Part shown: positions 46,106 through 48,130 of the stretch, in pieces
Position numbering within the stretch: position 1 is the stretch's first letter
Layout: every line of letters starts with the position of its first letter
Translations under genes and position numbers: made by a program
Source: Flavobacteriales bacterium
GTDB lineage: Bacteria; Bacteroidota; Bacteroidia; Flavobacteriales_F; PHOS-HE28
DNA: 64,000 bases
Direction: 5' to 3'
NCBI GenBank assembly: GCA_020852835.1
Contig: JADZAC010000045.1
Span: 62,001-126,000, forward strand
The notes under the pieces: model-generated
Told to the model about the DNA's origin: nothing
Database searches by the model: none
The model's input: the letters and a program-made list of their open reading frames with translations, nothing else

Positions 46106-46969
46106 TCACCAATCCGCAAGCGGCATCGTTTCCTTGATGCGCACCCCCTTTTCGGTGCGCTCCACCAAGGCGCATTCCGTTACGCTGTCGTGCTCAAAGT
46201 ACAGGATGGAGTCCTTGTCCGCTGCACCTTCCAGCACCAGAGCCTTCTCCTGCATGCTCAGCAGCGGGCGTGTATCGTAACTGATCACCCAGGGAAGCGG
46301 AAGGTGGTGCGCGCTGGGGATCAGGTCGGCCAGGTAGATCAACGTGCGGCCTTTGTAGGCGATGTGGGGGATCATCATGGCATCGGTGTGGCCGTTCACC
46401 ATCAGCACATCAAACCCGGGGAACAGGTTGGTTACATACGGGGTGCCGGTCTCGTGCCCGCGTTCCGCCTCCACGAACTTCAACCGCCCGCTCAACTCAA
46501 TGGGCAGGATGTTCTCGCTGAGGAAGCTGGCCTTTTCGCGCGGGTTGGGCTTGGTGGCCCACTCCCAATGGAAGCGGTTGCTCCAGTAGTGGGCATTGCG
46601 GAAGGCCGGCACCAGCTTGTCGCCATCCCGCCGGATGCTTCCCCCGCAATGGTCAAAGTGCAGGTGGGTAAGGAACACGTCGGTGATGTCGTCCGGGGTG
46701 AATCCGTGCTTCTTCAGTGAACCGGCCAAGGTGTCGTTGCCGTGCAGCTCATAGTGGCTGAAGAATTTGGCGTCCTGCTTGTCGCCAATGCCGTTGTCAA
46801 TGAGCACCAGGTGGCCTGCGGTCTCCACCAGCAGGCAGCGCATGGCCCAGGTGCAGAGGTTGTTTTCATCGGCCGGATGCCGCTTGCTCCACAGCGTTTT
46901 GGGCACCACGCCGAACATGGCCCCGCCATCCAACTTGAAGAATCCGGTATCAATGGTATAGAGCTGCAT
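46106..46969 (-). CDS. MBL-fold metallo-hydrolase
   Basis: A 287-residue metallo-beta-lactamase fold hydrolase. The metal motif THLHFDHCGG (HxHxDH) is near residue 108, and a later NGHTDAM carries another metal histidine. The N-terminus MQLYTIDTGFFKLDGG and the VETAGHLVLIDNGIG block are typical of hydrolases related to quorum-quenching lactonases and glyoxalase II. No substrate can be assigned. The ATG at 46969 is preferred to one at 47044. Confidence 0.85.
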   Translation of the reverse strand: MQLYTIDTGFFKLDGGAMFGVVPKTLWSKRHPADENNLCTWAMRCLLVETAGHLVLIDNGIGDKQDAKFFSHYELHGNDTLAGSLKKHGFTPDDITDVFLTHLHFDHCGGSIRRDGDKLVPAFRNAHYWSNRFHWEWATKPNPREKASFLSENILPIELSGRLKFVEAERGHETGTPYVTNLFPGFDVLMVNGHTDAMMIPHIAYKGRTLIYLADLIPSAHHLPLPWVISYDTRPLLSMQEKALVLEGAADKDSILYFEHDSVTECALVERTEKGVRIKETMPLADW

Positions 46970-47047: not shown

Positions 47048-48130
47048 TCACTTGGTGCCCAAGGGCCCCAGCCAATCCTTGACGACCTTGTCCACTGCGC
47101 CGTTCTCCATCATGCGCAGCAGCACCACGTCCATCAGGGGCGTTTGGGCAGCATCGGTCCGGAAGGCGAAGCCGTAGCCCTCGGGCAGGTAGTGTTCGGC
47201 GGAGATCGCCAGGTCGGCGTGCCGCGTTTCCTGTTGGAAATAGAGCAGCTGCGGCCGGTCGAACAGCACGGCATCCACACGGTGCGCCTGCAATGCCGCA
47301 TAGCACGAGTCCAACGCGGGCATGGCCACGGGCGTGCCGCCGTGTTCGGTAACGAACTTGGCGTGGGCCGCCCCTTCCAGCACGGCCACGCGCTTGCCCG
47401 GGAACTGGTCTGCGGTGGCCACCACGGACCGGTCCATGCCGGTAAGGGTGAGCGTGCTGGCAATGCCGGCCACCATGGAGGTGGCAAAAAGCAGCGAGAT
47501 CACCATCCACGCACCGGCGATCACGCGGCCAAGGAAGGTTTTAGGCGCCACATCGCCATAGCCGGTGGTGGTCATGGTAACAATGGCGCACCACATGCCA
47601 TTGGCGATGCCGCGCGCTGGCCTCGGCGGGAACTGCTCATTGCGCTTGCGCTCGGCCAGCCACAACAGGGCCCCCACGCTTGCCAGGATGCACAAGAAGA
47701 CCCCGACGGCGTAGGCCAGCCGCTTGCTGAAAAAGGGCCTGATCCGGGCTTGAACATCCAATTCATCCTTACGGGAAAGAATGGAAAGGCTCGATCGGAA
47801 ATACGGCTGGGTAAGGCTAACGCGGGCGGCATGGTCCGCGGTGATGGCAACCGGCCCGGCCACGGCATCCACTTCACCGGCCTGCAGCGCTTCCAGGGCG
47901 GCAGCCACCGTGGGGTATGTGCGCGTTGTGCATCTCCAGCCCAACACCTCGGTGGCCTCATTCCACAGGTCCATGGATATCCCCGAACCATCGGGGTTGA
48001 TGAACGGGGAGCTACCTGCCACCCCCACCCGCAGGGTATTGGTGGCATGCGCAATACCCTGGGCGGCCTGGGGCCATAGCAGCCCAAGCATCAAGAGGGC
48101 GATCAAGGGTAGCGGGCGAATGTGCAGCAT
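47048..48130 (-). CDS. GluR0-like ligand-gated potassium channel
   Basis: A 360-residue protein built like a prokaryotic ionotropic glutamate receptor. It has a signal peptide (about 1-25), solute-binding lobe S1 (about 31-115), helix M1 (about 138-160), a pore loop with the potassium filter TTTGYGD (187-193), helix M2 (about 203-228) and lobe S2 (about 245-360). This is the GluR0 order of Synechocystis, with the binding protein split by a two-helix potassium channel. Asp291 in DAVLFDRP lines up with the acidic residue that binds the ligand amino group. The arginine that binds the carboxylate appears to be His100 (ITADHAARVSLTQPY), so the ligand may differ. The ATG at 48130 follows AAAGGAG. 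Confidence 0.85.
   Translation of the reverse strand: MLHIRPLPLIALLMLGLLWPQAAQGIAHATNTLRVGVAGSSPFINPDGSGISMDLWNEATEVLGWRCTTRTYPTVAAALEALQAGEVDAVAGPVAITADHAARVSLTQPYFRSSLSILSRKDELDVQARIRPFFSKRLAYAVGVFLCILASVGALLWLAERKRNEQFPPRPARGIANGMWCAIVTMTTTGYGDVAPKTFLGRVIAGAWMVISLLFATSMVAGIASTLTLTGMDRSVVATADQFPGKRVAVLEGAAHAKFVTEHGGTPVAMPALDSCYAALQAHRVDAVLFDRPQLLYFQQETRHADLAISAEHYLPEGYGFAFRTDAAQTPLMDVVLLRMMENGAVDKVVKDWLGPLGTK

Follow-up and report, generated by a model that had tools for sequence, protein, structure and literature searches.

A GluR0-type potassium channel gene from a Flavobacteriales bacterium with replaced carboxylate-side residues in its ligand pocket

We analyzed a 64,000-nucleotide stretch of DNA (the window) from a Flavobacteriales bacterium. 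A gene for a GluR0-type channel, related to the glutamate receptors of brains, lies on the minus strand at 47048..48130, stop codon included. It starts with an ATG at 48130, ends with a TGA stop codon at 47050-47048 and encodes a product of 360 amino acids; the assignment is based on the open reading frame, Pfam matches and an AlphaFold model. The gene sits between rpsA and a gene for a metallo-beta-lactamase-fold hydrolase (46106..46969, minus strand) directly downstream. The hydrolase is a neighbor only, and its presence in the genus does not depend on the channel: it is present in 42 of 45 genus genomes versus 7 of 45 for the channel, and the two adjoin in 5 of the 7 genomes that have the channel.

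The domain order of the product is S1, pore, S2, with all parts encoded on the minus strand. A predicted signal peptide (residues 1-28, MLHIRPLPLIALLMLGLLWPQAAQGIAH; 48047..48130), seen in the sequence and as helix 7-24 of the model and with a putative cleavage site, precedes the S1 half of the ligand-binding domain (residues 31-124; 47759..48040). The pore module (residues 136-231; 47438..47725), recognized by Pfam and in the model, consists of two transmembrane helices and a P-loop. It contains the K+ selectivity filter TTTGYGD (residues 187-193; 47552..47572), read from the sequence and conserved across homologues. The S2 half of the ligand-binding domain follows (residues 236-357; 47060..47425). 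Both halves were delimited by alignment with GluR0 and by fold match, and S1 also by Pfam.

We found that the channel has the layout of an ionotropic glutamate receptor, a solute-binding domain broken by a two-helix pore, as an earlier note on this DNA had claimed. Pfam detected SBP_bac_3 (1.4e-15, residues 33-355) split by the pore, Ion_trans_2 (PF07885; 4.1e-12) and Lig_chan (5e-11). The top sequence matches among solved structures were Synechocystis GluR0 (1e-20) and then Nostoc GluR0. An AlphaFold2 model made with 45 aligned sequences as input had a mean pLDDT of 91.3 and a pTM of 0.76. The structure prediction that the earlier note had proposed as a check places this fold nearest to the glutamate-bound GluR0 ligand core (1ii5; Z 27.7, 218 residues, rmsd 2.3 Å), with Nostoc GluR0 (2pyy; Z 27.0) as runner-up. 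Foldseek with the full chain matched AMPA receptor LBD-TMD structures (E ~1e-23). The split of SBP_bac_3 by two membrane helices and a P-loop, the T-x-GYGD filter and the GluR0-like ligand-core fold are the features of GluR0-type (Group 1) channels. The architecture is that of an intact channel of this type, and its sequence suggests a periplasmic two-lobed ligand-binding domain that would drive a two-helix, K+-selective pore.

Homologues were sought in 197 relatives, 45 genus genomes, 395 genomes phylum-wide and 395 class-wide, and in one genome-contig scan; these sets overlap, and an order-level search added no genomes beyond the 45 of the genus. Deduplication left 52 homologues for the alignment, chiefly from the phylum of the window together with a few outside sequences. 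Matches to the channel were present in 32 of the 395 genomes sampled across the phylum. The layout had been described as rare; it is uncommon, but not exceptional. A search of the same genome for a paralogue of the channel found none. Distant GluR0-like homologues (<30% identity) occur in 19 plasmid records. Their open frames (NZ_CP117262.1, NZ_CP123849.1 and others) come from Agrobacterium, Rhizobium, Paracoccus and other genera and are mostly annotated as transporter substrate-binding proteins. A remoter homologue, L035 (G556:C207), has an in-frame TGA.

Residue 100 of the channel is His (codon CAT, 47831..47833, minus strand) at the site of the carboxylate-binding arginine (GluR0 R117, GluA2 R485), as had been read from the sequence alone. 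The motif GPVAITADHAA aligns with GPISVTPERAA of GluR0, and in the model His100 is at the start of helix 98-103, after strand 89-95, which is the place of GluA2 R485. Arg is found at this site in all 52 homologues and in both solved GluR0 proteins. His100 was seen in the window genome only: the searches of relatives, genus, phylum and class and the 52 aligned homologues revealed no clade that has it. The earlier note had allowed that Arg103 might fill the normal site. Arg103 is ruled out as a displaced carboxylate arginine, because Arg100 is universal in the 52 homologues whatever the residue at 103, and in 12 of them Arg occupies both sites.

We found that the changes extend beyond residue 100. 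The earlier reading was right about the family, Asp291 and the replacement of Arg by His, but not in taking a single residue as the full story. Ala95 (GCC, 47846..47848, minus strand) occupies the site of GluA2 Thr480 and a GluR0 Ser, where 51 of 52 homologues have Ser or Thr and one has Asn. Ala254 (GCG, 47369..47371, minus strand) occupies the site of GluA2 Ser654, which is Ser or Thr in 49 of 52. All three alpha-carboxylate side-chain positions are thus altered. There is also a new His at 256 (CAC, 47363..47365, minus strand), the site of GluA2 656, where the homologues have A, S, T, G or P and none has His; position 656 is said to affect ligand energy (PMC12226733). The acidic residue for the ligand amino group is kept, as claimed, in the form of Asp291 (47258..47260, minus strand; the site of GluA2 E705), conserved in 50 of 52 homologues. 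Pro93, Tyr319 and the pore residues are retained as well. GluA2 positions 450, 478, 480, 485, 654 and 705 touch ligand backbone atoms (PMC12226733). Of the mapped positions with an informative side chain (480, 485, 654 and 705; 450 is unmapped because the loop is short), three of four are altered and 705 is kept. As an amino-acid-binding site, the pocket therefore has the S2 acid and lacks the S1 arginine and the 480 and 654 hydroxyls. The three altered carboxylate positions together with the second His make a stronger case for a changed pocket than His100 alone.

At the neighboring GluA2 655 site (residue 255 in the window), four homologues have Pro (L003, L004, L005 and L007) and the nearest one, L002, has Asn; none of these has Thr, although all are Arg-bearing. 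Judging by this site, Bacteroidota channels of this type may lack any tuning to glutamate.

The changes in the window channel are concentrated in the pocket. Six changes fall at columns of the ligand-binding domain that are conserved in six near relatives, and 3 of the 8 pocket columns are among them (hypergeometric P 0.009); the P value ranges from 0.009 to 0.06 by reference set and is indicative, the pocket set having been chosen post hoc after residue 100, albeit from a published list. Given a change at 100, the chance that 95 and 254 would both also be hit is ~0.003. When each of the six nearest homologues was left out in turn and class-conserved sites were scored, 0 pocket columns were changed in each, versus 3 in the window. 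Many of the window changes cluster at residues 91-105 and 254-261, which form the cleft-facing starts of two helices.

The rate of evolution of the ligand domain has also been approximately double that in the sister lineage, and the pore has not evolved faster. Relative-rate counts with three outgroups (window/sister) were 26/14, 21/10 and 25/11 for the ligand domain (P 0.02-0.06) and 2/3, 1/1 and 1/2 for the pore. For dN/dS we fitted a home-made codon model to seven sequences from the genus; its figures are rough, as synonymous sites are almost saturated. For the whole gene, dN/dS was 0.096 on the window branch versus 0.052 in the background, a difference that is not significant (2 delta lnL 2.3). 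The corresponding values were 0.13 versus 0.068 for the ligand domain, a modest difference (LRT ~3.3, P ~0.07), and 0.040 versus 0.033 for the pore. A dN/dS of 1 on the window branch was rejected (2 delta lnL 16.7; 8.3 log units), which rules out neutral decay of the whole gene along this branch.

There are signs that the channel is dispensable in the clade of the window. The nearest homologue, L002 (G028:C43; 72% identity, Arg100), is otherwise intact, but a TAG interrupts its frame at Trp180 in the pore helix (L002:2017-2019). The channel was not found in 38 of 45 genus genomes, including 24 of 30 near-complete ones. In one of the 38 (G004), rpsA and the hydrolase gene are ~330 bases apart with no channel between them (L059:2358-2685), and a search of this empty site for channel remnants gave none that were convincing. 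The site could reflect loss or primitive absence; support in the hydrolase tree is weak on this point. Together, the stop codon in the sister gene, the absence from most genus genomes and the empty site suggest that the clade may have kept the gene under weak selection.

Based on these results, the contacts that grip the carboxylate have been lost in this lineage only, and the channel probably senses something else or no longer needs a ligand. We favor a changed ligand in a channel with a rebuilt pocket and give this reading a probability of roughly 0.5. A constrained pore, a faster ligand domain, replaced carboxylate side chains, a kept acid on the amine side and a facing His are together best read in this way. 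Arg100 has been replaced by His and the flanking hydroxyls at 95 and 254 by Ala in this lineage only, a second His has arisen at 256 on the facing lobe, and Asp291, Pro93 and Tyr319 have stayed. The cleft would now shut on a ligand that lacks a standard alpha-carboxylate, and its closure would open the K+ pore as in GluR0; such a ligand could be amine-type, imidazole-type or metal-coordinated. Like the earlier note, we infer that what the channel senses may not be a standard alpha-amino acid. One specific form of this, an unlikely one, is that His100 (lobe 1) and His256 (lobe 2) form, with Asp291 near, a new cleft-bridging site that would bind either a transition metal or a ligand of anionic or aromatic character, in a geometry predicted from GluA2 numbering. 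If true, a GluR0-type K+ channel would be gated by a class of ligand unknown for bacterial glutamate-receptor homologues.

The main rival to a changed ligand, clearly the less probable of the two, is that the pocket is eroding: ligand sensing would be unneeded, the channel would open constitutively or respond to voltage, tension or ions, or else its gene would be in early loss, and the pocket would drift while the fold and pore stay constrained. The in-frame stop in the sister gene and the absence of the gene from most of the genus speak for this reading. The patchy presence and the empty site fit it too, relaxation specific to the ligand domain would account equally well for the dN/dS and relative-rate data, and there is a precedent in Trichoplax AKDF1, where loss of D705 leads to leak currents (PMC12226733). 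Erosion would, however, scatter changes over conserved columns, and those seen are gathered at pocket columns. The gain of His256 required two base changes from GCN, Asp291, Pro93 and Tyr319 were all retained, and dN/dS is far below 1.

Backbone amides at helix N-termini also help to bind the carboxylate in ionotropic glutamate receptors, and the channel could still be an amino-acid receptor in which these amides and His100, His256 or both hold the carboxylate, with an affinity that is lower or pH-dependent. Asp291 is as expected for such a receptor, and some animal GluE2-alpha receptors without R485 are still predicted to bind glutamate (PMC12226733). We nevertheless consider this rather unlikely, because the pocket has also lost both hydroxyl contacts, 95 and 254, and mutation of the equivalent Arg in insect Ir84a abolished responses (PMC8575457). 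It is very improbable that His100 is a sequencing or assembly error. The assembly is a draft of 96 contigs, and CAT is one transition from the CGT (Arg) codon of the sister gene, but 95, 254 and 256 of the same pocket changed independently and the reading frame is otherwise intact.

Across glutamate receptors, the arginine that binds the carboxylate is taken as the hallmark of amino-acid sensing. Here it is lost with two partner residues while the pore is under strong constraint. The channel, with a 72%-identical, Arg-bearing sister for comparison, is a compact natural test of how such a receptor fold changes or drops its ligand.

The closest known system is GluR0 of Synechocystis PCC 6803 (slr1257; 1ii5, 1iit). 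Both proteins have the order S1-TM-P-TM-S2 and a K+ filter, and neither has an amino-terminal domain or a third membrane helix. In contrast, GluR0 has Arg117 and Ser/Thr where the window channel has His100, Ala95 and Ala254. Synechocystis GluR0 mediates K+ flux and the cell-volume response to KCl (PMC13099474), and by analogy an osmotic or membrane-potential role for the window channel is a reasonable guess. GluR0 of Nostoc punctiforme (2pyy) shares the ligand-core fold and retains the Arg and Ser residues. Group 1 prokaryotic glutamate receptor channels are defined by topology and K+ filter and have an Asp in S2, all of which the window channel has; their S1 Arg, reported to be totally conserved in prokaryotic glutamate receptor channels (PMC2950845), is His in the window channel. 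The same Arg has been lost from the glutamate-receptor fold in insect ionotropic receptors not tuned to acids and in placozoan GluE2-alpha. Those are far-removed animal cation channels, whereas the window protein is a bacterial K+ channel. In animals, loss of this arginine goes with non-acid sensing (PMC8575457), and by analogy both non-acid sensing and leak currents are plausible outcomes for the window channel.
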